Shown piece after piece: positions 16,800 through 64,000 of a DNA stretch of 64,000 bases. The position numbers and the translations under genes were made by a program. This DNA is from Sporopachydermia quercuum (Eukaryota > Ascomycota > Sporopachydermiomycetes > Sporopachydermiales > Sporopachydermiaceae): NCBI GenBank assembly GCA_001599295.1, contig BCGN01000005.1:1364001-1428000 (forward strand), read 5' to 3'. The notes beneath the pieces were generated by a model that was not told the DNA's origin, did no database searches, and was given only the letters and a program-made list of their open reading frames with translations. How positions within the stretch are numbered: position 1 is the stretch's first letter; each line of letters opens with the position of its first letter.

Positions 16800-18203
16800 T
16801 TGAATGAATACAGTTATTGAACATTTCACAAACTATTGATGCAGCTACACAGCGCTTTTATCGGCGACAGATAATGATTTCTTCAAAAGAACCAATACTA
16901 CTCAATTGATGGGTTAATCTATGAGCTTCAATATTGCCTCTGTATCAAAGCTTTCAGCGAGTTTTTCACACAGGTTTCATTCCTGAATTGAATTCAAAGA
17001 GCTTACATGACTTATTCATTCATGTTTCCTATACGTTATTTGTAAACTAATTTTTGATCACTGTCATAGATTCTTTTTTTATGATAGTCCTCATAATGTA
17101 TTATAAGTTTCACGATCACGTTTATTTGAACTCAAGAACAATCAGTAGGAAGAATTAGTAAAATGTGCCTGACTCTCCTTTGAAGAAAGTTTAGAACTTA
17201 AGCACTCTCATCTTCTAATCTTACCATTTAAAGCATCGGTACCTATTTTGGATCACCGAGAGAATAATCAGCGAAACTTCAGTTAATTGAATATTTCATA
17301 GGATATGGTTCATTTCAAGGACATATTCACCATATTATGTGATGGGAATCAGCTAATACTGAACTTGCTAATAAAGTTGTTAGCTAGTGCTAGTTCAATG
17401 TGAATGATGATTTAAAGTTAAAGTTGTCGATGTAATTAGGTAAGATGTAATTAGTAAGGTTAGAGTGTCAGTTGTGACATCATACTTAGGCAAGATTGGG
17501 CTTTTTGTATTCAAGGCCTAAGCGTAGATCAAACTCTCGCTTTCACAATTTGAACAATTAGATGCTATACAGGTGGTTGATGAGGTTCTAGATATGAGTG
17601 TGTGAAATAACAGCTGTCTCACAGATTTCTCGGAAAACTTGTACTAATAACTATAATCGGATTTTTAATAGTTTAAGCTAGAATTTGTGTCTATTATTAT
17701 CCATAACGGTTTTATTCAGGAATACTATTTTATAATCAGTAAAAGGTGGAGATGAATGGAAAGAGTTAAGGTTAAAGTAGTAAACGTTAGGTAGTGAGGG
17801 ACTGGAGTAAGAATTTATTCTTATTTCATTATTAGAACATCATCGAAATGTTCTAATTCATACTGATGTTTTCGCTTGCATAATTCATTCTGATTTGCCA
17901 TTTTTGCTAACAAGGGGTTTATTTTTTCTTCTTTGGAACGAAGAATGTGGAATTTGAAATAGTATAAATGGTGATCCAATTCCTGCTTCTTCCCAACTGC
18001 TTGCTAATAGGAACTAGTTCAAGTTTTCGATGTGATAATTACTGTCATCAGGATATAAACATAACGTGTGATAAGTAGATTGATTAATTCATTAGAGTAT
18101 CCGTTACAAAGATCTATCATTACTTTTATTATTGTCAACTTTCAAGTTTTATCGTCCAATTCATAGATTGACTAGTCAAACAAATAATCGAGCTATTTAA
18201 ATC
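16800..18203. other. Intergenic spacer, 1.4 kb
   Basis: AT-rich; no gene, RNA or long repeat found. Short runs of TTAAAGTT and GTTAAGGTTA type words occur near 17410 and 17765. Confidence 0.5.
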
Positions 18204-18720
18204 ATGAGTGAACCAGTATGTAATGACTATTCATAGGACTATGACAAATTCGTAGTGTATTACGATATCAAAATGACGGAAGACAGTTTTTTCTAACAAA
18301 TTTATCATCAGGTTCAAGTTTTCTACAAAGGAAAAGATGCCGATTTCATCGTGTTAGGCTCTTCAGCTGAAGCTGTTGAGAAGTTCAGAAAGGATCCTTC
18401 AGTTCCTTTGGTTTCCGCTGTTGCATTATTCAAAATTCTCACCAGTAGAACGGGTGGTTCTGAGGGTATTAAGGAACAAGCTTCTAATTCTGAAGTTGAG
18501 GTAAGTGTGCCTGTTGTGGCAGTCAACTGCCGCTGTGAGTAAATCAACAATTCATCGTGTATCAATGTACTAACATATATTCTAGAATGAATTTGGCGTC
18601 TCTGAAGAAGAAGCTATTAAAATTATTTTAAAAGAAGGTGTCATTAAGGAGAGTGCGAAGGTTGGTGCTAAATCTTTCAATTCAACCAATGATTCTAAGG
18701 GAACTCTAGCTGGGCATTAA
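18204..18720 (+). CDS. RTC3: RTC3-like SBDS-domain protein, three exons
   Basis: Rtc3 is a small protein with the fold of the N-terminal SBDS domain, linked to RNA metabolism and stress in yeast. Exons: 18204-18215 (MSEP), 18312-18500, 18586-18720; the join gives 111 residues, the same length as I recall for S. cerevisiae Rtc3. Visible family features are VFYKGKDADFIVLGSS near the N-terminus, the middle block ending in KILTSRTGGSEGIKEQAS, and NEFGVSEEEAIKIILKEG in exon 3, which matches the NEFG and ILRNG parts of Rtc3. Both introns are phase 0 with good donors (GTATGT, GTAAGT), branch sites (TTCTAAC, TACTAAC) and AG acceptors. The S. cerevisiae gene is, to my knowledge, intronless. Confidence 0.88.
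18216..18311 (+). other. Intron 1 of RTC3 (96 bases)
   Basis: Donor GTATGT, branch TTCTAAC at 18291-18297, acceptor CAG. It splits the gene after only four codons. Confidence 0.85.
18501..18585 (+). other. Intron 2 of RTC3 (85 bases)
   Basis: Donor GTAAGT, branch TACTAAC at 18568-18574, acceptor TAG. It contains in-frame stops, so retention would truncate the protein. Confidence 0.88.
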
Positions 18721-21700
18721 AGAAGACCCAACTGTTGTCAACATATAATGACTAATGAAAGACCAAAAAAAAAAATTAATATTAAAATCCTATATAATCT
18801 ATCATGTTAGCATAAAGCAAAGAAATAAATATTGAGTGAAAACTATTTAATTGTTGCACTATATTTGACTATATAGGGTGTAAGATATGATATTCGTTAA
18901 AGGTGATGAACGGAGTTCTGTCCTTCAAGTGGCGATAACTGTGGTGTGATGCTCAAGCAGAACTTCTACTACTACAAACTACAATTCATTCGGGAAACTA
19001 TCCAAAATTAACAACCCCTTGAAGACTATTATGCCTTGGTTGATCAACTTCCAAATATAATCTTTTATGATCTCTATGTATAAGAAATGGTAGTTCTTTG
19101 AAAACAGATCCAAATAATGGAGAATGATGTATGGCAATAAAGTTCGAGCGGACTAGAAACTTTCACCCTTGTTTTCTATGCTTTTTTGTACATAGGTTGA
19201 ATATGATGAGAATGATAAGGATTTTTAATTTTTCTGAAAACGTTGAGCATCCACTGAAGACTTTTCCTTTTGCAATATCAAAGATCTGATTATTAAGTAG
19301 TCAGTTAGTTTTATATGTGTTGACTTTAGCTTTTTTAGCTGCTTTTACTTGGAGCGTTATGTGTGGTTACGGAGTGAAAGAAACAATGGATTTAACTTAA
19401 ATTTAAGGTTTCTGTCTAGTGATGACTATACACCTCCCGTAATGTTTACTGGCATGTTTCAATACTTGACTTACAATATAAATAGTGGTCTACTGATTAA
19501 AATAATCAATATAGCTTTTATAATCCATTTATCATGAAAATAGAACATACTGTCTACAGTCAAACAGTCGGTGTAATGGATTCCTTTCTGAAAGACTGAT
19601 CTTCGTAAAATTAATATATATGCTAAACTCAATTGCAAGTAAGGTTTAAACTTTATTATCTGAGCAAATGAGAACAAATTCGAGAGTACTATTATTGAAT
19701 TCCAGTAAAAATCGATTTCTACTTCATTGAAACCTTCCTCACAATAAACCAACGAAAAAAAAAGTACATTTTACTAGTTTTCTGACCATGACGGATACAT
19801 TCTAGTTTCTCTGTCAACTATACTCCGTAGTCATGTGCCTGTGGTAGAATTATGAAACCTTCATCTTGCAACAAAATTAATCCACTTGCGGACCTTGTTC
19901 AGTATTTCTTTCTCTGGATTTTCTACTTAATATATATCGCATAGTTATAAATTATAAACTAAATACCAAAAGCTTCTGATCTAGGTAAAGAGAGTCCAAG
20001 TTTGTCTAGCCAGGATATGATTCAATCTGAATATCAGGTTTTAGTATTAAAAATGCTAGATTGACAATTGGTTTCGTGAATTATCATATTTAGCATCTCC
20101 CATTCAACTGAATCCATTTTATCATTACTTATGCTGATAATATAATTAAACAATGATTCTGATAAGCAAAAGATGAAAAAATTCGATGATTTTAAGGGAT
20201 GTTGCATCCTTGTGGCAGCTAACAGATTGACTAAACCTATTACAGCGGAAACTCTGACAACTCCTCGATAAAATAAAAAGCAGTGGAACACCAAACAAAC
20301 ACAATAGTTGTGGTTTATCTTCTATAAACCTTCAGTTGTAGAATCTTTCAATAAAACGTAACCTTCTCCACCAGAGAGAATGTCTGATGTCAAAGTCTCA
20401 TAATCTCTATTTCAAGTGAGTTGAATTCCCTCTGTCATGGAAACCGCTTTTCTTCCATTCTATCTATATGTGAAACTACTCAACTCTCTTAATGTGACCA
20501 CCAGCAACCTATTAAGTGATTCAGTATGTCACTGATACAGCTATTGATTATCTACACCAGTCAGAGCCGAATTAATATTGAACCAATTCAAAAACAAATT
20601 GGACTGAAGTGGTAGATAGAATCCATTTTTGAATTGAGTTGGTGGCCCAATAACAAGTTTAATTATGCACTTCAAGTTATTACGTTTAATTGTTAGTGAT
20701 AAGTTAGAAATAAAGCATCGGATCCACAGGTGATTTCTCAAGTCGGTTGCTGCCCAATGGTATAGTAACCTCTCTAAAGTAACGAGTGGTAGACCTTAAA
20801 TTTCAAAACCAAAGTACTGTTGGATCAAATTGTCGTTTTGGCAGGCTAGTGAAGAAGATCAGCCATTCAATTTTAACAATTAAGATGCAATCTGTGCTAC
20901 TACAATGCGGGTCAAGGTACATTGTTTCCAAGAGCAATTATCATTGCATCTCCTAAGGCTCAAAAATATAAAAATATCATATCACTACTTCTAATTATTT
21001 TTGATCTTAAAGAGTATAGTAAAGTATCTAATTGCCTAATAATGGTCATTCTCCCTACGTTATTTGTATAACTTTCTGAGCCTTAATTATGAAACCCTCT
21101 TTCACATTCCCTTACCCTTAATTACCAGCTGCAGATCAAGTGCAACAGAACCACGAAACCATTTATAATGCGTGCACGATTGTAGATAAAGAAGCTGACA
21201 CAATCAGAAAAGAGCATATTCCTATGATTCGCACTCTGAGAGCAATAGAATGAATATCGACCTTTCTTTCACTCGTTCACACTCTTCAAGTAGATCATTG
21301 TAAACATCTTGTAATCCAATTCCCATTGAGCTTGCTTTATGCAGAAGTAAAGTTCACTACTAGTCTATGTACATCGGAGTTTATTTCCCAATTAGACAGT
21401 TATCTATAAACTTTAAATCTGAACTGTGAAGAAGCTTTTATTTTTGTGACTTGATGAAACATCAATCAAACGGGCCATATCAACAAATTAATAGTTGTTC
21501 TTCTTTATTGATATGATAATAATAGGCTATCGATTAATAGATTTAACAAGTTATCGTACGATTGTTCGCTTTATATCTGTGTAGGATTTGATTATTTTCT
21601 TGTGCCTTCTTTTGTCTCTTTAACTCCTGAAAGTAAGTGTCCTTATCATTCCACCGCCGAAATACGCTGGTTGAAGATAAGGTGGATATCAATAGGAATC

Positions 21701-21988
21701 GAATAACTAGCTATTCAAAGACCTGTTGCCAGTGTTACTTTGAAGAATCCATTTATTGAACTAGATAGATGGATAGACACTTATCATTNAATTGGTTTCT
21801 TGCTTTCATCATTGGAAAATACAGTGACTAACTCACGAGAACTAAACCAAAAAGTCTATCAACTTTCCTTTTGAGTGTTGCCTTGTTTTTTTTTCAAGTC
21901 ATTTATTATCTTTAATCCATGAGAAATACAACCAAGTTTTCAATCATACAAAAAATACTTTCTTATCGCCACTACAGTATATCGGAAA
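18721..21988. other. Intergenic spacer, 3.3 kb
   Basis: Long and gene-free by my reading. Only short frames below about 95 codons occur, none with a recognised family. I found no tRNA with both A and B boxes, no long repeat and no transposon remnant. Confidence 0.5.
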
Positions 21989-48709: not shown

Positions 48710-51700
48710 CTATCTCTCACTGATTGCAACTGCAACAGATTGCTTATCATCATGGCTAATGCTCACTTTCACATTCTTGATTCCAACTGCATCAGCAGCC
48801 TTTTTAGCATCACCGTGCAATAGAACTGATGGTGCTCCCGTAGTATTATCATGAACAATCTCAATAGATACTAATTCGGCTCCTCCTCCTTTACCTTTGA
48901 CATTCAGTGACTTGAACACTGCTTCCTTAGCAGACCAAACACCAGCAAAGCTTGATTGAGGCGACGCTGCTTTGAAACAATATTCCTGTTCCTTTGGTGT
49001 GAAATTTCTGTTCAAGAATGTCTCATTTTCAATATTGATAGCAGAGATTTCTTCAACATCTACACCAATTGACCCAGTGACATCAGTTGATGCTGTCAGT
49101 TGTTTCAAGATAGCTTCAGTCGATTTGGTGGCTTTGGTGGCACTGCTTCCTGCTTTGAAGTAAGAACCGGCGCTTTGAATACCTTTTTCTTCAAATACCA
49201 GCTTCTTGGACTTCTTCTCAAGAGAAACCCTTGCCAAAGGATCGAGATAAACAGGTTGTTCCAAATCATCAGTGTAAGGTGGTTTATCTTTAGCAACAAA
49301 TAAGCTGTTGTTGATGAATGCTTCATGGGCATAGCGATAGGTCTTCTTGTATCTTTCTGCAACCTTGACTGCGTATTTCTCGTATGAATCTTTGTCCAAA
49401 GCAGCAAACAAGTAGTCGGAGTGCACCAAGATAGCTTGAGCACCCTTCTGACCGAAACCAAATGATGTGACTGAAGCTGCCTTGATACCATCAGTCTTGA
49501 TGGTCTTTGAAGGGAAGAGAATGTTGGTAAATTGGGATAAGACAAGATCAACGTTATCTGCGTTTCTGTTACCAGGAACAATGCCAGAATTGAGAATCTG
49601 TAAAGCTCCGTTCATCATCCAAGCACCTGCAGCACCCTTGGGATGACCAGTCAGGTATTTCTGGAAAACACCAAGTAAAGGATTACCCTTGCTTCTGCCA
49701 AGATGGAGAAGCATTTGATTGATAGCTTGAGATTCATTCTTATCGTTAGCCTTCGTAGAAGTACCATGGAAAGAAGCAACTCCAAGGTCATCGATCGTCA
49801 AACCAAAAGTAGCCAAGGCTCCTCTTAAAGGTGCGATTCTGGAGTCATTCTTCCAGAAGTCAAGGCCCCAAGCTCTCAATGCTTCGTTGGTTTGCTTTTC
49901 GACCTCCTTTTCAATGTATTGAGCTCTTTCCTTGACATAAGCATCCAAATCAAACAAATCACCGTGTTCTTCCTTCATAAGCTGAGCTTCTTCCTTGATG
50001 TATAAGTATTCTTCTTCAGCCCATTGTTTGATTTGATTCTTACGCTTGTTCACTTGCCGCTTCCTATACTTAATGTCTAGTGATGGGACAGGGTATTTCA
50101 AATCGCCTTGATGTTCTCTGGCAGTGGTAAGAATACCTTTACCAGGGGCAGGAACTGATCTACCAATCTTGTCACTAGCTGTAGCAGTCAAGGCAACAAT
50201 ACCGTAAATTGGAACACCCATGTCCAAGGCTAGCTTAGCGCTCATGATGATTTGAGATCCAGCACCTTGAGCTTCCATAAAGCCAGCTCTTGATGTAGTT
50301 GTAGGTCTTGACATTTCGCTAGGGGTTCTACCTCTTTTCTCTTCTTCAACACTATTGCTGGTAGCGTTCATATTACCGAATTCATAGGATCCTTCTTCTT
50401 GGAAATCGTCATAACCACCAACAATACAGATCTTAGCCTTCTTACATAGAATGGTCTCTACACCAGTGTCAACGGATTCCACAGCAGTAGCACAGGCAGC
50501 AACAGGTGTCTTGATAGGACCTGAAGATGATAAAAGTAACATATTGACCCAGGCACTCATGGTATTAATGAAAGACTCTTGCAAGATATCGTTTTGAACT
50601 GGCTTGTCTTGATATCTGTCCTTAAACATACCTCTCAAAGCAGACACACCACCCATTCCAGAACCAGCACAGTTGCCGACTTCTGAAACATGGACATATT
50701 TATAGAATTCATAAGGATCAGAGATACCTGAAGAAATCAAAGCTTCAACTACTGACACCAATGCGTATAAAGTGATAGGATCAACTTGAGAAATGGTATC
50801 TTCACCAATGCCGTATCTTCTAGCATCCCAACCGCTAGGGATTTGACCAGCAACCAAACGGTCGAATCGTAAAGCCTTTGGAATGAATAATTTAGCTCCA
50901 GTTAATAATCTAACTGTGTATTCACCGCTCTCGGGAACTTCGAAGATTTCAACCAAATCACCGTGTTGTAATTTGAACTGTTCTGCTGTTTCCTTGGATG
51001 CTTCAAATGGCTCCAGATCGTGGTCAATAACGATTTCTTGAATGAATTCCTTTCTGTTGGGATCATATCCTTCAAACAATTCAGGTTCGATTAATCGAAT
51101 ACCAGAGTGTTCTAGGATCTTACTTTCGTACTTCTTCTTGATATCCTTATCCTCAACAGGAGTATTGGTCTTAGTATCAACCCATCCAACATAAGGAACA
51201 CCCTTCAATTTACCGTTATGATACTTGATCAAACCCATAATCCAGGCCATTTCAATGCATCCTTCCAACGAAAACTCTCCAAATGCTTCCATCTCCCATC
51301 TGGTTCTAGAGTTACCCCAAGGACCAACTTCAGCGAAACCAGTGACAACAACAACGCTTTCCAAGTCAAGCATGCCTTCTAAATCTGGAGCAATTGATTT
51401 CAATTCGTCGTAAGTCTTGAGACTAGGGAACTCCATCTTCATATTAGCCCTTTCGTCGACCTTGGTTACTTGGAAAGGAGAATCGGCCTCTTTACCATTC
51501 ACGACTTTATATTCAATAGCAGTTTCGATAGAAACGGCCTTTCGGATTTCTGATGTTTGGTTCATTTCAGCTCTTAAGTTCTGTAAGATTTCTCTCATAT
51601 TTGGTAAGAATTGGAAGCCACCGTTCAAGTCAGCCATCACTGGTTCCTTCTGGCATAAGTTAACTAAGTCAGGAACCATAAGACCTAAGATGTTGAAAGC

Positions 51701-54379
51701 CATTTCCTTTTGGGAGAAAGTTCTGACCCCGAATTTTTCAATGCCTTCAGCAACAACGTTGTTGGAAGTCATTAAACCAGTACCTCTAGTCCAACCAATT
51801 ATAGCACCGCAGATTGTCAGGTAAGATTGCCAAGATTCAGAGTACCATCTGTCGAAGAGTGTTTCCAGGCCAATCTTCGATTCGGAGTAAAGACCGTCGG
51901 AGCCAAAAGTACCATGGTTTGGTGATAATGGTAAAATGACTTGGGCAGGCCTTGTTTCAATACCTCTAGAAGCCTTCTCCTTCTTGACGTCACCTAGAAG
52001 TCTTAATAGATTGGTCAACATTATTCTGTGGGCTAACTCTGATTTAGAATCAATTTGGTCGATTTCAATACCTTGTTCAGGAATAGCAGCAAAAGGAAGA
52101 ACGAAATCAAGATCCCATCCCAATCCACCTTTCTTTGGTTCTGAATAAATGAAGTCTACTAAAGCATCAACGTCCTGTTTAGAACCTTGGTTAAAAGGAA
52201 CAACGATTAAAGCAGATCCTACTGAACCATATCTTGTATACATAGATTGGTAGTATTTGGTGACATTTTGAGAGAATCTTGAGGTGGTGACGATGACTTT
52301 GGCACCACCAGATATGAGTCCCTGTAGAATATCAGCACCAATGGAACCAGCGCCAGCACCTGTGATCAACACGTACTTATCTTTGAAAGTGACACCGTTG
52401 ATAGCAACGTTTTCAAGGTTATCTAGATAAGCACTAGTTAAAGATTTGTCATAATCCCAAGAAGTAACGTTCTTACGCTTCAAATGTAAGAAAGGAACAA
52501 CATCTGGTTTGATTTTGCTGGAGACTTTTGTTGTTTTTGATGAAGTAGTAGTCAAACCTCTAACTTCTGTAGTTGAGTCTGAGTCTGAGATGTCAGAATC
52601 TTCAGAGGTATCATCGTCGTCGGCAATCACTGCAGTCTTGGTAGCAATTTCACCATTTTCTTCCAGGAACTTGATCAAATCACTGTACATAGATTTGATC
52701 TTCAACTTGGCATCTTTTGTTAATTCGTTCTGTCTGGCTATGGTCTTATATACTTTGGCGAGTTCTTCTTCAATAGAAGGATTCTTGTTGGTCTTTGATA
52801 CTTCACCGCCAGAAGCCATTTCGCAAACGTATTGTTCCAATTTGCGAAGGGAAGGTCGGGGAACTTCTTCATAAGTGATATTACCCTTGGAATCAATAGT
52901 AGTCTTAGGGGCAGTAGGATACGTGATGTCCTTATACACAGGGTCGTGACCAATGACTTGTTTGCAGTTGTCAATTAATTGTTGGCCCAAAGCTTTTGCC
53001 AGTTTGTACGTCTCACCTTTATTGGTTGGACAATGATCTATATAATACTCCATGAATTCAATACAAGTAGGATCAGCTCTGTTCATTATTTGGATGCATC
53101 TGGCAACAATTTCACGGTCAACGTTGGTTAGTTTACCAAAGATGATATCGTAGAACATAGATAGAACGTCTTGCTTAGCCCAGTTCCAGTAGGAGTCATA
53201 AGTTCTTGCCTTTAATGCAGAGAATGATGGCTTGATACCAGAAGCATAGAAGTCACCGTGTTCTTCAATCCATAGGTCTAATTCAGCTTGTAAGCTTTGT
53301 GAAGTGGCTTTTTCTTTTAGAAGTTCCTTATCGCCAGCTCTCAAGTCAATGTTGAGATATTTGGCATATAATTCCAATTGTTTTCGTACAAGAGTCTTCT
53401 GATCTTTGGTGACTGCTTCTAAAGCAGCAGAGTCAACAACGGCACTAGAAGAACCTGCGCCAGCACCTGCACCTGCGCTTGCCACGGCTAAGCTGACACC
53501 AGATATGGAGGAATATTTCTGGGCAACAGCGTCAAGGAAGGCTTTTGCTTCGGCTTCAGAAGCCAATCTTGCGGCAGGTTCCATAGTGACGGCAACAAGA
53601 AAAAGAGAGTCTTGTCTGCCAGGTCCTAAGCCCCATCTTGTTTCCAAGTACTTCTTAGCTGTGGTAAGATTGAATCCACCAGGCATTTTTGATGACATTA
53701 ACCTTGAAATCAAAGATGATGTTTGTTTACCTAGAGCACCGCTGAAAGTGTGTTGGAAGTTCTCTGCTAATTCTTCTAAAGGAGTTTCTTCTGGTTTTTC
53801 TGGTGTGGTACCAAATTCTTTACCTAGATCACCAAGAATTTCATTCTGTAGTGTTGATTTACCACCTACTAAGTCTTTAATAGCTTTGGATAAAGGAACT
53901 TGGTCTAATGTTTTCTTCAGCTTTTGAGCGACCAAAGCGTGTATGATTTCTTTAGCTTGAACTGGTTCATCGGGAACTTGAGCAGCAGCGGCGGCTGGGG
54001 CTGCGGAGGCAACTGGAGCGGCAACTGGAGCAGCTGCTGGGGTAGCGGAGGCTGGAGCACTTGCCGGTTCCTCAGCAGCTGGTGCTGGTGCTTCAACAGG
54101 ATCAGGAGTGTAGTAAATCTCCTTGGCATCTTTGGAGTAACAAAGCACTTGACGTTGTAAAGAAAGAGCAGCGTCATAAGATTCGTACTTGGCTTTGATT
54201 GTACGTGAAGCCATACCAGCAAGAGTTGGAGAAGGACCAATTTCAACTACTCTCTCAGTATTAAAATCTTTGAGGAAGACATCTTGAGTTTCAATCCATC
54301 GAACTGGAGATGCAAACTGGAAAGCCAGGAGTTCTGTCAAAAGAACGTGAGATAATTCTTGTTCGATTTCAGGACGCAT
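48710..54379 (-). CDS. FAS2: FAS2, fatty acid synthase subunit alpha
   Basis: Alpha chain of the cytosolic alpha6-beta6 fungal synthase that makes palmitate and stearate. 1889 residues, essentially the family length, starting [20 protein letters not shown]. Order: the N-terminal part of the malonyl/palmitoyl transferase domain (1-95), an Ala/Pro linker, the acyl carrier domain with the phosphopantetheine serine S175 ([17 protein letters not shown]), the structural and ketoreductase part ([20 protein letters not shown]), and the ketosynthase with active cysteine C1296 ([13 protein letters not shown]) and histidines in [11 protein letters not shown] and [10 protein letters not shown]. The phosphopantetheine transferase is at about 1770-1889 ([22 protein letters not shown]). 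All key residues are present, so it should be active. It is divergent from the WOPR gene across 7 kb. Confidence 0.98.
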
Positions 54380-55687
54380 TTTCAGTTGTGATTAGGTATG
54401 TCTGATTATGATTATAATATGGTAGATAGAAATGTTGTTATTTTCCTTTGTATTAGAGGTGTTCTTGGGTGGTTTGTATCTAGTACCAATTGAATGGTTT
54501 GCAGCGCTGAATACGATAAACGTAGTCAATTCTATAAGGCAAGCAAATCAACCAATACTGCTATCACTATTTAGTTGAATATGATGATCGTATTACAAAC
54601 TGGGTAAATCCTTCGGTTTGCTTGCTTTTGACAACAAGTTATGTTTCTCTTTTGTTTTGTTGGCGATAAGAGAAAACAAAGGAACAATACTAGTAGTAAT
54701 AGTGTACGTGATAGATAGTGTAAATGTAAGCGAGCAATTGCAATTGAAGTAAAAACAAGGCAATACGAGGCAATACGATATGATACACTAAAATCAAGGG
54801 AAAAACGTGTGATTATAAACAGGAACCAAAAGGTTTTTATTCATTTACAACACGGTGATGAGCTGGAAAAGAAAGAAGTTGATAAACATTTAGTGGTTTC
54901 ATTAATTATTATGTTGCAAAACTGTGAAATTTCATTTTTTTATTCGTTTTTTTACGGTTCTTTCAATTGACGGACTTGGATAAAGTTTGGACGGGAAGTA
55001 GAATGGGTTGGATTGTACGGAGTTCGTGGGATGTACTGAGGCTGTGGTAGTCGTTGTGCTTGAGATGAGGTACCGGATGGAAAATGGTTGGAGGATTTGG
55101 GTCGCGAAAGGAGTATGATAGATAATATCTGAATGAAAGTAGAGAAGGGAGAATACAAGAAGGAAATGTATGGAAATGCATGGAAATATGGAAAAAGAAG
55201 GGGGATAAAAAGTGAAAGCAACGGTGTGTCATTTTGATATTTTTCAGATTGTTGATGGTGTTATGCTTAGATTTCAAAAGCTTTGGAGAAATCTTTTAAG
55301 GGTTGTCCCAAAGCTATGTGGATTATGGCTTTATGGACTTATGACCCACACACACTGGCATAATGGCCCCGCGTTGCAGACTCAAAAACATCCTCAACCA
55401 ATTTTCCTTTAAGTACACATAATTAAGATTTACCTAAAAAGTCAACTTAGTTTCGCGTCTCGTCATGTACAACAAATGGATTCTCTCAACAAGATCATTT
55501 CTTATAGTAAAGGCAGTTATCCTATTGTTGGATCATACCTCAGTTATTAAACTACCTTGTAATTGATTGCTTCACGCTATCTTCGATGAAATACAATAAA
55601 CTTTTTGGAGCATCCACGTAGCATACAACATCTTTCATACATTGAGATAGTAGGGCAACAAAGTTGTTGGAAAACTACAGTTTATGC

Positions 55688-55696
55688 AAACTTTAA
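55688..55696 (-). promoter_or_regulatory. Candidate WOPR-binding site TTAAAGTTT
   Basis: Full 9-base match on the minus strand to the motif known for Candida Wor1. Farthest such site from the WOPR gene. Confidence 0.35.
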
Positions 55697-56251
55697 GCAG
55701 CTTTGGCTCACATGTACGTACTAAAGCTCTCAATGATTGTCCCAAAATAGCATGTCTCATTAAACTTTCCTACTAAGAGAATATGTTGGGTCGAGTAATC
55801 TGTACGTAATAGTTATTGGACAAGGGGTGTTCTGGAGACATAAGAGAGTTCAATGGTCGTTTTTATTGTGGATTGTTCTATAGCTACTCTTCTAAAAAGT
55901 AAATTATTGTTGTAAATAATAGTTGTAGGTAATAATCCTTTAAGGCTCAAATTGATGGAAGGCGGACATAGTATGGCTATGAGATTAAGCTGCGTTTAGT
56001 AACTAGCCAACACATTATTCAACATATACTATTAGATTTGTAAAGAGAAGACTAAGACTAGAACAATTAGCAGAATAATTACACACATTCAATATATTAA
56101 GCCAACTAAACAACAATTTTAGTTACTCGAACTTTTACCTACTCATCGCATCGACCCAGCAAATCTCTTTTCGTTTTTTTTTCTAATAAAAGATCCATTT
56201 CCATTTAACATATACAACATTGCATTTCATTTCATTTCATGCGCGAGATAA

Positions 56252-56260
56252 TTAAAGTTT
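56252..56260 (+). promoter_or_regulatory. Candidate WOPR-binding site TTAAAGTTT
   Basis: Full 9-base match. Further 8-base matches TTAAAGTT lie at 56407-56414 (-), 57949-57956 (+), 58800-58807 (-), 59095-59102 (+) and 61103-61110 (+). Confidence 0.35.
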
Positions 56261-59200
56261 GGATATTGTTGTGTCAGATTGAGCTCGCGTCTCATTTTCT
56301 TTGTACATTTTGTGATTATATAATTGATTAATAACAGGTTGTTTGAAGTGAGACTTTATGTTAGGTGGTGAGATGTAGTAAATAAAGTTTATTGTTCTAA
56401 AGTCGTAACTTTAAAGCTAGAGAGAATCGGGATTTTGATAAATTGTGATAACGTGCTTGATCAGAACAAATGTTTGAAATATAGATTTGAAATATATGTA
56501 AAAATAGTTGTCAACTAAGCAAACTGGAACGTAGAATATGGAGTCTCGAGTGACAAATTTATGCTCTATATTCATGAGCAAACTTTGTAGTCTTTTGCTT
56601 TTTGTGCAAATGATTGTGGTAGTTAGATAGTTGTCATTCAAATACATATGCATTGGAAATTCGATGCTTTCTAGATAACATAATGAAAGAGTTAATTATT
56701 TTCATTACTCAATTTGATAAACAATTACAAATAGATAATTTAGGAAGCAATATAGAATTCAATTTGATTCTTCAGAGTGTAAGCTTTGGGTAAATTCGTA
56801 GTATTTGTCTGATGTTTCCGTGGCCAGTTTTGAAAATCTCATTACTATATGCTACATGCTACATGCTACAAGCTAATTTATTTGAGGTTTCTCAATAATA
56901 TTGAAACCTATGAATTTATTTCTATTCGGCACTTATTCCTGTAATTAATTATAAAAATGTATTTGCCAAGTGTTCTGAATCACGCACATTCAAAAGAAAA
57001 TCACAGAAAAAAGGAAAAAAAAAGAAATCAATCCTGTATCCTTCAAAAATCATTTTTCCGTAACAAGTTTCTATCCATTGAACAGGGAAGTGCAAAGGTT
57101 TATTGAAACATTATTCTTTACCATTTATTTGTATTAAATAACCCTATAGGAGTGTTTATCAAGCAACGACTAAGCTTTCTTGGTGATTTCAGGCTCTTTT
57201 TGAAAGATGATATGGTACTTCTTCTCTTTCTACAGATGACTTTCCTCTCGGAGTTTCAAAGAAGAATTTTATTATCATAGCAATGATGAAACAATATCCT
57301 TCTTACTGTTCCTTTTGACGTTTTCACAGTAGGACTCCGACAAATCTCACTATATCCGCTGAAAGCCCGATGGAGAAATTTCTCCAAAGAAGAACTGAAA
57401 TCAACTGATAACACAAGTTTTAATAACACCGATTAATTATGGCTGGCAGATTGATATATATGGTAAAACAGTTTAATCACAAAATATTCCTCTAGACTTG
57501 GATTGATTGAGGTTCGTCAATTAATTCTTCTCATATCCTTAGAACTGTTCTCATACTCTCAATTTTGGCCGGTTATTGCCCACTGTCTATTGCCTACTGC
57601 TTAATTCTTTTTTAAAGCTAATAGCTATGATGGTAATAAAAAATTCATTCACATTACGTTTAAAGATTGCAAACAATTCTCACTCAGTTTACTTGATATG
57701 ATTGCCTACCTTACGCCTGCCATCCTGAATTTCTCCCGAAAGCTTATAAGCCCTTTGTCACTATTGCAAAAAGGTCTCCAGCGGTAAGTAGTACCCTAGT
57801 CCTTCACGGTTAAACACATCCCTATCTGATGAGTAAAGAAATCTTTACCTAAATGTTGATCCGTCATAATTGGCAAACTCCGATAACTCGTCCCATGTGT
57901 CATTCCACTCTTCAATTCTCTACAGATCTACAGAAGAAAGGATAAGCTTTAAAGTTCATTTCTAAGCACGTATTAGCTTACTTTCAAAGGAAACTCTAAT
58001 AAAGTTGAGCTACCTTCAGGCTTCCTTCCAACCTAGCACTTTATTTTAAGGTTTAATTATTATTTTAAGCTTAAATTTTAAAAAATTGATGTCTGAATGT
58101 TTACTTCTACGTAGAACAAGATTAAAATCCGTCAAACATTTCAAAGAGCGAGCAATTTTGCTAGATTAATGAAGTGAACATTTGTAGTCGTAACCGAAGC
58201 TCTATTCTATAATTGATTTTATAATTGATTCTACTGACAATTTAAGGATGAAGATTTTGATTAATGAATGAATTAATACTGAGATACCGGAAGTAGTAAG
58301 TTAGAAATTGAAATGAAAAGGATGATATTATTTGAACGAAAAGAACTAAATATTAAAGACTACTCGGAGTCCCTACTCAGTGCAGCCTCCTAATATTCGT
58401 GAATAATAGTAGTACGATAATTTTAAGTGAAGTAGGTTTTGATCCCTTATTCTATTAAACAAGATGTTGTTTACATCTCTAAGGATTAACCAAATTTCTC
58501 TTCTCTTTCTCGACAGCAGTAATTTTTACTACAGTGCTGAATATATGAAGATATCTTCTGGTGCGATATGATCCCTGACTTTTTTTTTCCAACATTTATC
58601 TTGATTTGGTTCATTAAGTTGATTTGCTCTTGAATCGAGTGATTCAGAAATCCCGTACTCACACTCTTTGATTTAATCGTAAAAGGACCTCTCATAATCT
58701 TAGTAATAATTATTAAGATATTCGAAGTCTGATTAATAAACATATGTCTTAATTGAGGAGAAAGAAACTCACCTTAGCCGAAAGTAAAATATAAGGCATA
58801 ACTTTAAATAAGATTCATATTATGTGAAATATAAAGCTAGTATTTCAGATGAGTAAGTTATAAGACAGTCAATAACGATAATACTTAGGGAATTCAACTT
58901 AAATAATGCCAGTCCTTGCCTTTGAAATCTAATCTCTAATACGCTATTCTGATTTTACTTCACTGAAAATATTTGATTGATATCAGTGATCTCATTTAAC
59001 ATAATCAATACGCTTCTCAGACTATGACTACTATGTATGAAATAAGGTTTGAGATAAACATAAGGTTATGCAGGATCTAACATAGAAAGCATGATTAAAG
59101 TTATAGCTAAGTTTTAACAAGCAATAACTTGCAGGAGAGACTAATTTAAACAATGTTTTGAGCTATTTATATCCCAAAATATAAATAAGGTTAAGGTTAA

Positions 59201-61534
59201 GAATGAGCTAAGAGAAGCATATAAGCTCAAAAAATAGTATCAGACTCTGAGTACTTTTGAGTATAACTTACTATATTTCAAACCCTAATAGGTTTTGCAA
59301 GTTTTGATTTTCCTTCTAAGACGGTTTTTGATCATTTATTAAGGGATAATGTTCCATAGGTACTGGCCGTAAACTGAAGAATGTATACTCGTAAGTGAAA
59401 AATGAATTATTTTAAAGCAGCGAACAGTTTTGTCTCCTTTAGAATCTTAATGACTTCTTCGTTTGAAGAATGTTTGAGGTGTTGAAACCACTTTGCAGAC
59501 TGACTCTAGGTTCAAAGGTATTTCAACAATATGCTAAGCATTTCTTGAGTACTAGTGCCAAGAGCTTGGAGTTTATCTATAGATTTATGCATAAACTATT
59601 AGTAAATCTTTGATGAAGAAATTCTCATCATTTTATCTTCTCCATTGTAAAACGATCACGGAACGACACTCGGACTTTTGTTTTGATGAGAATTTGTGAT
59701 GCAGGAGATAAACAACGTGTAAGCCACCATTTAATGTCCAGAGAAATAACATTACAGATTGAAAACCAAATTCAGGGTCTCTTACTGTTTCTAACTTAAC
59801 GAACCTTCGATATACCTCTTAAGGTTCGATTGAAGATAAAGTAATTTATGCTTATTGTCATTAAACTTAGCATTGAGAAACCACCACCTTAACTCGTACA
59901 TGTATTTGCATAGCCATGATCCTGAGAAAGAATTATGATTCCTGATTCCAGCAGGACTCCGATATACTATGAGTTAACTACGTGAGAATAATTCATATGA
60001 TAATTCAAAACTCTCTTAATTTTTTAGCATTACGACTTTTCAGTCATTTCAGTAAAAGTTCAAAGACCCCTGTCAGATATCAAATACTTTTGTTGCTTTT
60101 GTTTGAATTTTGACAACTAATTTGCCTCTAAGAATTATTGACAATATTGACAATATTATGCCAAGAAATGAGATCAATTTTGGTTTTTTAATTTTTTTTA
60201 TTTGGGTCACTTGGTTTATATGTTGAGACTCCAGTTTCCCCAGAGTTTTTGAATTTTAGTAATTTTAGTTTATCTTTCCCTCCATAGAGTGCAACTAACA
60301 TACTTGCAGAGTGGAGAGGTAATGGCGATTATAAATCAGGAAAGATAAGAGGGTTTAATTGAATGAATCGAAAAAGGCTTCTTATTAGATAAAAGTTTGG
60401 TAGTCGAGAGAAGGGTTCAAAACAGGGATTATTGTGATGTAAGAAGCAAAATACGATAGTACCTAGTAATATTGGCAAATGAGGCAAATCCTAGAGATAG
60501 CAAATGGATGGCAAGGTATGAGAGACACAGTGTTATCTCAACCTTATTGACTAGAATTGATATCACTGGGTTTGACCAATTCCCGCACGCAGATGGGACA
60601 TACTTACTGCTTTAATTTCAATTCTGCAATATTTGAAATTCTTTCGCTAAAAGAACAGACCTGAATCTATCATTTTTTTTTCGTTTTAACAACTAACGAC
60701 ATCCAAGTTTCACGATACTGGTGTGGAAACTCGAACTGAAAGTGTAGACTATTATATGTATGATTTATATACAATCACGATAATCAACGTTACATCAACA
60801 AGATGATAGACCTTGACTGACACCTTGCAAAGAAGGCGAAAACATGTTCGTTGTGAATTTCAATAAGTTAAATTACTCTGAAAACTAATGAACAGCTCTT
60901 TCAAACAGCTACGCTATATATTATCTCTTTTTTTTGCTTAAAGTAATCAACTCTTCTTATTTTAATTCTTAGCTTTCTTAATCGGGAAATATTCAATGAA
61001 ATAGGTTAAATTTCAAGTAGAATATCCATTTTATTGCTCATAAATTGAGAGTGACTGGTCAAACCTTAAAAGGTTAATTTTGTTATAGTTTTTAACGTTT
61101 AATTAAAGTTGTGATAAAGGTTCTTTTCTCTATTATTTCTCTTAAATTTAATTTAATGTTTGTTTTAGATTTAGATTTAGATTTCTTGGCTCTAAGAAAA
61201 ACTTTCTTTCAAAGTTTAGTTCTAGTTTATTTACTGCTACTTAACCTTTGTTAGTTTACAACCAGATGTTTCGCTTTATTCCTTTTAAGCAATTTACCTC
61301 CTCGTTTCCTTCTTTTGTCTTCTTCTTCCTGTTTTTCATCACTTAAAGTCTTGTTCTTATGAATTTTGAAACTTTTGTTGAAATAGGAAACATTGTAATG
61401 AGAGCAGTAAACAACAATACCAATATCTGAAATATCTATATTCGTACTATCAATTGTATGGCTACTTGGTCTTATTTGTTTTAACGCGACAAGTATCAAC
61501 AATAGCATTTCCAAATTTATACTCAGCCACAACC

Positions 61535-63163
61535 ATGGAAACATATCGCGGCCATGTCCGAACAGCAACAGATGCGATAATACTGTTTGAAGCGTGCCGT
61601 CTTGGTATACTCAACAGGATCCAAAGAAGACTTTCAGCAAAAGAAAGGTCAGCTATCAAATCAGGCTCAATTTTCGTTTGGGATGAAAGGGAAGCAGGAA
61701 TGAAAAGATGGACTGATGGTAAGTCTTGGAGTGCATCAAGAGTCAATGGAGCTTTCTTAACCTATCGTGAAATGGAAGGAAGAAAATCTGAACAAGATAA
61801 TGGCAATAGATCTCCAAGCAATAACAGTTCTACCACCTCTAACCCTGCCAGAAGGTCAGAGTCACCAAGAGAATTAGATGATCAAGATTTTAATTCTTCA
61901 GAAGGCTATAGATATAAACCAGACGGATTAATAAAACAATCATTTTCTGTTATAACTAGCGATGGCATGAGACTACATTTGATAGCTTACTTCATGAGAA
62001 GTCAAGTGACTGAAAACCAATTACTGACGCCATCAATGGATCCTCAGTTATACAATATTAGCGTTCCAAAAGGAATTTATCCTGAAGCTGTTTTACTTTC
62101 AGATACTTATCCACAAGTTCCTGTACAGGTTCCTGTATCTATGGGAGTTCAAGGTATGCAGCAAGTTCAACAAGTACAACCACTGCACCAAGTACAACAA
62201 GTTCAAGGAGTTCCTATGCCACACCCTAATCAAGGCTCGGTTTTACCACAACCAAACCATATACAGTTACCCAATCAACATATGCCGGTATCAATGGTTC
62301 GAACACATCATATCAACTCAGCCGATCAAATAGGATCGTATCCTGGACAGACAATTCCTGTACACTCTACCATCCCAATCTCTGGACATTCTAATTATAC
62401 TATTCAACAAGCACAGGGTGATACTAATAGCACAATGACCAGCCCTCAAGCTGGACGCACTAGTAGTCCAAACTCTGCATCTACTGTTTCCTTTGCACAG
62501 ACTGGAGCCCATTTATTAGCTGTCCATAAGCCAGAATACTCTTCCAAGTCCCCTACTAGTCCCATCGCTCAAATTCAATCTCAAATCCTAACCAAAGGCG
62601 TTCCTATGACTTCTACTACTTCTGGAGTCAAATCAGCTGCTCCTAATGCCAATACTGCTTCTATCACACAAGCTTCCAACCATGGGCATGTAACAGCTAT
62701 ACAATATGTTCCTCAGAACTCACAGTCTTTCCTCGTACCAATGGCGCAAGTTTATACAACCGTACCAGGACAGGTAGTTAATCAGCCTTACTACATCCAA
62801 GTTCAACCAATATATCAAAATGCTCCAGCTGCCGCAGTTCCAACGGTGCAAACTGCAGTTGCAGCATCCCCAGCCCCAGTGGTTCAGGGCCATACTCAAT
62901 CTCATCCCTTATCGCAAGCTTCTCATAATACCCAACCAAGACAATTTGTTACATCTAATACTATCAACGTTCTATCTCATAAAGGTAATGCTGAAATCAC
63001 TCCTAAATCATTAGCTCCAAAAGATATGCCATCTTTAGAAGATTTAATGAAGAGAAGTTCAAGCGTATCTTCATCACTACCACCGTTAAGATTAGGAGTT
63101 GGGAACAATCATGCTTCTAATGATGCTAAAACGTTAGATGTACTTAATAGGACATTTGCTTAA
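61535..63163 (+). CDS. WOPR-domain transcription factor (WOR1/MIT1/Gti1-Pac2 family)
   Basis: Fungal master regulator family: Wor1 controls white-opaque switching in Candida, Mit1 filamentation in Saccharomyces, Ryp1 the yeast phase in Histoplasma. I start at METYRGHVRTATDA (61535), the usual beginning of the domain; the frame extends upstream without an ATG. 542 residues. WOPRa is at about 1-75, with ILFEACRLGILNRIQRRL, GSIFVWDEREAGMKRWTDG and WSASRVNGAFLTYRE. After a Ser/Asn linker, WOPRb is at about 130-175, with YKPDGLIKQSFSVI and MRLHLIAYF. The remaining 365 residues are Gln/Pro/Ser/Thr-rich, a prion-like activation region. The very long upstream region with WOPR-type sites suggests autoregulation. 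I cannot decide which paralogue it is. Confidence 0.9.
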   Translation: METYRGHVRTATDAIILFEACRLGILNRIQRRLSAKERSAIKSGSIFVWDEREAGMKRWTDGKSWSASRVNGAFLTYREMEGRKSEQDNGNRSPSNNSSTTSNPARRSESPRELDDQDFNSSEGYRYKPDGLIKQSFSVITSDGMRLHLIAYFMRSQVTENQLLTPSMDPQLYNISVPKGIYPEAVLLSDTYPQVPVQVPVSMGVQGMQQVQQVQPLHQVQQVQGVPMPHPNQGSVLPQPNHIQLPNQHMPVSMVRTHHINSADQIGSYPGQTIPVHSTIPISGHSNYTIQQAQGDTNSTMTSPQAGRTSSPNSASTVSFAQTGAHLLAVHKPEYSSKSPTSPIAQIQSQILTKGVPMTSTTSGVKSAAPNANTASITQASNHGHVTAIQYVPQNSQSFLVPMAQVYTTVPGQVVNQPYYIQVQPIYQNAPAAAVPTVQTAVAASPAPVVQGHTQSHPLSQASHNTQPRQFVTSNTINVLSHKGNAEITPKSLAPKDMPSLEDLMKRSSSVSSSLPPLRLGVGNNHASNDAKTLDVLNRTFA

Positions 63164-63547: not shown

Positions 63548-64000
63548 ATGAGTAAACTTACAGTAGAGGCATCAGCTCAGTTCATCAGCTCTCGGGCTAA
63601 GAATGTGACTGTCAACCCTGAGAACTGCTCAGCAAGCGCTTGGAAGCTATTAGAAGCTATGAAAGCTAAAACTTCAACTGAAAGTAACACAATAAATGGA
63701 TATATTTACGCTGGAGATTGGACTAGCCATCTCCTAAATTATTTCCCAAAGTTTGATGAGAAAGACCGTGCGAAAGTGAAAGTTTCCACTGGAGATGCAG
63801 ACGATATCAACGCTTGGGTTGTTGATTGGTTGTTTACGGTCGATCTATTGAACTTCAGTTTCTGGTCAGATGTTGATGTAGGTGATAAAGGTATTCCTGA
63901 CGAGCAAACAGAAAGATTTGCATTGGAATACAACGGCGAAATGTATACCGGATATTGGAGTTTATTAGCCGCAATAAAGCGAACAATGCAGAGAGGAGAT
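63548..64000 (+). CDS. QNG1: Queuosine 5'-phosphate N-glycosylase, Qng1/DUF2419 family (3' end outside window)
   Basis: Qng1 (C9orf64 in human) releases queuine from queuosine 5'-monophosphate, so the cell can reuse it for tRNA wobble modification. The gene starts at the ATG at 63548 and runs off the right edge after 151 codons; the family has about 330-350 residues. Visible matches: ESAGKFI-like start (VEASAQFISSRAKNVTVN), then NAWVVDWLFTVDLLNFSFWS, closely like the family block WVFVTDTLNFSFWS, and GEMYTGYWSLLAAIKRTM, like the family YSGYWSLCAAVNRAL. These blocks carry substrate-pocket residues. To my knowledge S. cerevisiae lacks queuosine, so retention here is a lineage marker. Confidence 0.9.
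   Translation, partial: MSKLTVEASAQFISSRAKNVTVNPENCSASAWKLLEAMKAKTSTESNTINGYIYAGDWTSHLLNYFPKFDEKDRAKVKVSTGDADDINAWVVDWLFTVDLLNFSFWSDVDVGDKGIPDEQTERFALEYNGEMYTGYWSLLAAIKRTMQRGD

Follow-up and report, generated by a model that had tools for sequence, protein, structure and literature searches.

A WOPR gene of the Pac2 clade and the fatty acid synthase gene FAS2 lie head to head around the longest spacer of the window (the 64,000-nucleotide stretch analysed here, C5:1364001-1428000 of a 16.39 Mb genome in 12 contigs). The spacer has no detected gene and carries a modest excess of the octamer TTAAAGTT, which a final T extends to the 9-base core TTAAAGTTT. We regard it as an even call that this DNA genuinely serves as a very long cis-regulatory region, a dispersed PAC2 promoter with multiple inputs whose far end is common with the FAS2 promoter (Table 1). 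Through such a promoter many factors would set the level of PAC2, much as long promoters do for other developmental regulators in fungi. Oversized control regions are a tendency of fungal regulators of cell fate.

Table 1 Features of the FAS2/PAC2 spacer, its two flanking genes, the seven octamers and the spacer upstream of the second WOPR gene. Coordinates are those of the window unless a contig (C3) or block (L003) is named.
Feature	Position	Strand	Properties	Distance to WOPR ATG
Divergent FAS2/WOPR spacer	54380..61534	.	7155 bp, GC 32.5%, apparently non-coding	
FAS2, fatty acid synthase subunit alpha	48710..54379	-	ATG 54379; PF18314, PF18325, PF00109, PF01648, PF02801	
Gti1/Pac2-family WOPR gene, Pac2 clade	61535..63163	+	542 aa; PF09729	
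TTAAAGTT site 1	55689..55696	-	continues to TTAAAGTTT	5846 bp
TTAAAGTT site 2	56252..56259	+	continues to TTAAAGTTT	5283 bp
TTAAAGTT site 3	56407..56414	-		5128 bp
TTAAAGTT site 4	57949..57956	+		3586 bp
TTAAAGTT site 5	58800..58807	-		2735 bp
TTAAAGTT site 6	59095..59102	+		2440 bp
TTAAAGTT site 7	61103..61110	+		432 bp
Spacer upstream of Wor1/Ryp1/Mit1-class gene	C3:1438218-1444788 (L003:3319-9889)		6571 bp, GC 32.6%	

The WOPR protein has one PF09729 domain at residues 3-153 (5e-45; 154.1 bits against a cut-off of 23.6), covering positions 1-167 of the 168 in the profile, followed past residue 190 by a tail rich in Q, S, P and V. The domain is related in sequence to the structurally solved WOPR proteins YHR177W and Wor1. 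At the other end of the spacer, FAS2 starts on the minus strand, so the spacer lies upstream of both genes and does not belong to the WOPR gene only. Most of the 120 matches listed for FAS2 are yeast proteins at 67-73% identity, the best of those listed that spans the whole query region reaching 73%, and the host is thus a budding yeast. FAS2 has 11 CTG codons, and CTG stands for a conserved leucine in all ten informative columns; the host is therefore not a CUG-Ser (Candida-clade) yeast, in agreement with the placement far from the Candida clade given in the preliminary description. Beyond PAC2, a gene for a queuosine salvage protein (PF10343, 3e-15) occupies 63548-64000 and is truncated by the window end.

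Length sets the spacer apart. It ranks first of the 16 spacers in the window, ahead of a runner-up of 5189 bp, and compares with a median of 1085 bp and a maximum of 5470 bp in 105 other spacers from the window and from blocks of contigs C1 and C2. These figures come from a sample of about 307 kb in which spacers of at least 100 bp were counted between ORFs of at least 100 aa, a border rule that is blind to small and multi-exon genes, equally for every spacer. The PAC2 spacer is an exceptionally long upstream region, as in WOR1-type promoters, and the earlier remark that no spacer in the window is longer than the one before the WOPR gene extends to all 105 others sampled.

A hidden gene filling the spacer had been named as a possible objection; none was found among ATG ORFs or by Pfam, Rfam or ARAGORN. 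No ATG ORF overlapping the spacer exceeds 97 aa. The spacer's 17 stop-to-stop ORFs of at least 60 aa all stay below the Pfam cut-offs, and the sole match below E 0.05 is to DUF2340 (E 0.00053, 20.8 bits, cut-off 25; ORF 54719-54967). An RNA gene was dropped as spacer content, since ARAGORN, with the bacterial code, found no tRNA in the window and Rfam gave no family at its gathering score. A repeat or transposon remnant was likewise dropped: a DNA search of the genome with simple repeats skipped found no second copy and returned the spacer itself only.

The genome holds one further WOPR gene by our search (a lower bound), on contig C3, and the two proteins fall into different classes. Matches listed for the window protein include Histoplasma pac2; those listed for the C3 protein include Candida orthopsilosis Wor1, Eremothecium Mit1 and a Histoplasma protein required for yeast-phase growth. 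We abandoned classification by database name, 'pac2' and 'gluconate transport' names occurring in both lists. As these names mix both WOPR classes, the assignment rests on a tree built from 26 WOPR domains, namely both from this genome, 10 of the 120 matches listed for the window protein and 14 of the 120 listed for the C3 protein, picked by name and kind. In this 26-row tree the window protein lies inside the Pac2 side, with Histoplasma pac2, at a support of 100/100. The C3 protein groups with Wor1, Mit1, Ryp1 and Sge1 proteins, also at 100/100, and the window protein lies outside that group. By its sequence, the window gene is a Pac2 paralogue and not Wor1. The analogy to the WOR1 gene drawn in the preliminary description consequently crosses a paralogue boundary and is not borne out for this gene; the Wor1-class gene is the one on C3.

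All seven octamers of the spacer are exact on recount, and those at 55689 and 56252 are the two full 9-base words, as first described. The window contains 14 in total: these seven, six in about 22.6 kb of other spacers (in line with the earlier count of about six in roughly 20 kb) and one outside spacers. Three of the six lie in the second-longest spacer (16800-21988), where the words at 17412 and 17418 overlap. Every octamer of the PAC2 spacer is at least 1.3 kb away from the FAS2 ATG. Five of the seven are without the final T of TTAAAGTTT. We sought a longer site common to all seven and discarded the idea, as their flanks have no clear extended consensus.

The octamer is modestly in excess of chance. 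Dinucleotide shuffling, on which the preliminary description had staked its motif, upholds the octamer (7 against a mean of 1.41 in 2000 shuffles of the spacer, p=0.0015) but not the 9-base core, whose two copies against 0.53 expected are not significant (p=0.099). From 20 copies in 120,684 bp (other window spacers plus 200 kb of C1), 1.19 would be expected, giving a Poisson p of 2.3e-4; adding 50 kb of C2 and the DNA upstream of the Wor1-class gene brings this to 27 copies in 152,549 bp, or 1.27 expected. The genome as a whole has 1887 in 16.39 Mb, or 0.82 for a length of 7155 bp. In 200 kb of C1, 50 kb of C2, window positions 1-54379 and L003, the fullest stretch of this length carries no more than four, and when spacer DNA is divided into 23 chunks of 3.6-9.7 kb, the 22 others have 0-4 each. 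For a word named in advance, we estimate the chance probability of the count at roughly 0.02 to 1%.

How much of this excess is biology? We think it quite possible, if short of even, that chance and the local composition of a long, AT-rich spacer account for it and that the words have no function. Among 280 words of the same composition, two reach seven copies in the spacer (TTAAAGTT included), and TTAAAGTT ranks third by enrichment ratio against a genome sample; when the 5535 words of the spacer are ordered by Poisson p, it comes 16th. Its one-mismatch neighbours are jointly raised as well, about 1.9-fold (30 against 16.0 expected), the full 9-base core is near chance, and the octamer's 1887 copies across the genome fall short of the 2624 of its reversed control word. 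Markov models built from the spacer expect 1.2-1.65 copies at orders 1-4, 4.0 at order 5 and 5.6 at order 6, the last two partly counting the TTAAAGTT sites themselves. Against a chance origin, the word was fixed beforehand from the literature, its p values run from 2.3e-4 to 1.5e-3 and no other scanned stretch has more than four copies.

Another word also clusters in the spacer. RGGACTCCGA occurs at 57331-57340, 58364-58373 and 59953-59962, three of its 16 copies genome-wide; its core ACTCCGA occurs five times in the spacer, twice upstream of the Wor1-class gene and 846 times genome-wide. In 9 of the 22 other spacer chunks, the best 8-base word is at least as extreme as the best in the PAC2 spacer, so local word clusters are common in the host genome. 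We do not claim RGGACTCCGA, a post-hoc find, as a true signal.

The Wor1-class gene on C3 offers an internal comparison. Its upstream spacer, with an aspartyl protease gene on the far side, is also long, and the spacers of both WOPR genes found are longer than all others sampled. It contains one TTAAAGTT and no TTAAAGTTT, and the 10 kb of L003 contain one TTAAAGTT against 1.49 in shuffles. Its top over-represented 8-base words include ATATGAAG (7 against 0.49) and AAGCTTAA (6 against 0.45). Both WOPR genes thus lie behind long spacers, and the octamer excess is found upstream of PAC2 only. If the C. albicans arrangement were crudely conserved, the WOR1 analogy would predict the opposite, with the excess at the Wor1-class gene. 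An autoregulatory switch outside the Candida clade, as first proposed, keeps its longest spacer, its roughly fivefold octamer count and a host outside the CUG-Ser yeasts, but meets a Pac2-class gene and a Wor1-class spacer without the excess.

Within a dispersed PAC2 promoter, WOPR proteins would be a plausible input, acting at a subset of the TTAAAGTT words. The likelier reader would be the Wor1-class paralogue encoded on C3, since its class has TTAAAGTTT as an established motif, the Wor1 core bound by Wor1, Ryp1 and Mit1 (PMC4567300); Pac2 itself may bind too. Input from the Wor1-class paralogue appears at least as likely as self-activation by Pac2. In a stricter form, the C3 protein would control PAC2 with no Pac2 self-control at all, which we consider unlikely. 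The match between the core and the known motif of the class argues for it, as does an excess confined to the PAC2 side of the pair, but just two full-length TTAAAGTTT sites are available for such control.

We find it somewhat less probable again that the length of the spacer comes from a transcript that escaped recognition and not from a large promoter; this could be a small gene of several exons, a long non-coding RNA or an extended 5' leader of PAC2. The 5' untranslated region of C. albicans WOR1 is reported at 1,978 bp (PMC2924316), and this genome does contain a small gene split into pieces, the DUF2340 gene on C7 matching its family in three. The weak DUF2340 (PF10209) similarity of the spacer extends over 54692-54967, at 22.1 bits and with one stop. 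Aligned with the C7 pieces, however, it scores 40 against a shuffle mean of 26.5 and maximum of 52 (p=0.012). Barely better than shuffles, DUF2340 was rejected as a hidden gene of the spacer, and we treat the trace as chance or as an undecidable, very old relic. The ORF, Pfam and Rfam results also weigh against a transcript, as does the absence of the branch-site form TACTAAC from the plus strand of the spacer, the one form and strand covered.

Least probable, and in our view doubtful, is autoregulation, in which Pac2 would bind its own upstream TTAAAGTT words in a positive and possibly bistable, WOR1-like switch: the octamer excess upstream of PAC2, the relation of its WOPR domain to YHR177W and Wor1 and the precedent of Ros1, with six bound regions upstream of ros1 (PMC4917244), are in its favour, but it requires Pac2 to bind TTAAAGTT, the protein belongs to the Pac2 clade, the Wor1-class gene has no upstream excess (one octamer and no 9-mer in 6571 bp) and five of the seven words are without the last T of a 9-base core reported as absolutely required for Wor1 binding (PMC3364952). 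Published Pac2 binding to TTAAAGTT was not found in the literature searched, in part as excerpts; the excerpts of PMC12505909 and PMC3364952 contain neither a DNA motif nor autoregulation for a Pac2 protein, and none of the motif terms sought turned up in PMC11855946.

Returning to the dispersed, multi-input promoter, the spacer hints at complex control, and a self-sustaining switch would go beyond what sequence can support. An improbable extension is a circuit centred on Pac2 and fed by the Wor1-class factor, by Pac2 or by both, with the WOPR word placed at the Pac2 gene and not at the Wor1-class gene. Pac2 would then be the hub of a cell-state circuit, a self- or cross-regulated role for a Pac2 WOPR protein that we did not find in the literature searched, in part as excerpts. 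If the predicted binding is real, the locus would offer a simple test of whether the wiring of a circuit can pass from one paralogue to another.

Long WOPR promoters bound by their own product are already known, for Candida Wor1 and for Ustilago Ros1 (PMC4917244), both in and outside Candida, which leaves low novelty in such an arrangement as such. In C. albicans, an '8kb-long WOR1 promoter' is described, with Wor1 feeding back on its own long promoter (PMC5786334), and intergenic regions bound by Wor1 are reported to be about fivefold longer than expected (PMC2924316). Ryp1 binds a Wor1-like motif, and the same motif occurs upstream of RYP1 too (PMC3720256). The PAC2 locus resembles C. albicans WOR1 in the great length of the DNA that precedes its WOPR gene (PMC5786334), but the two genes belong to different WOPR clades, and binding and feedback are experimental for WOR1, whereas here the case is one of sequence. 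Ustilago maydis ros1 is alike in its long upstream intergenic region with several candidate sites, far from Candida (PMC4917244); there, however, self-binding was observed by ChIP-seq, in six regions of that intergenic DNA, and by gel shift. U. maydis also carries a gene called pac2, distinct from ros1, which is the other WOPR gene (PMC4917244). The relatives within the clade are Histoplasma PAC2, which groups with the window protein in the 26-row tree, and Schizosaccharomyces pombe pac2, F. graminearum FGP2 and Metarhizium MaPac2, placed in the same clade by the papers that describe them.
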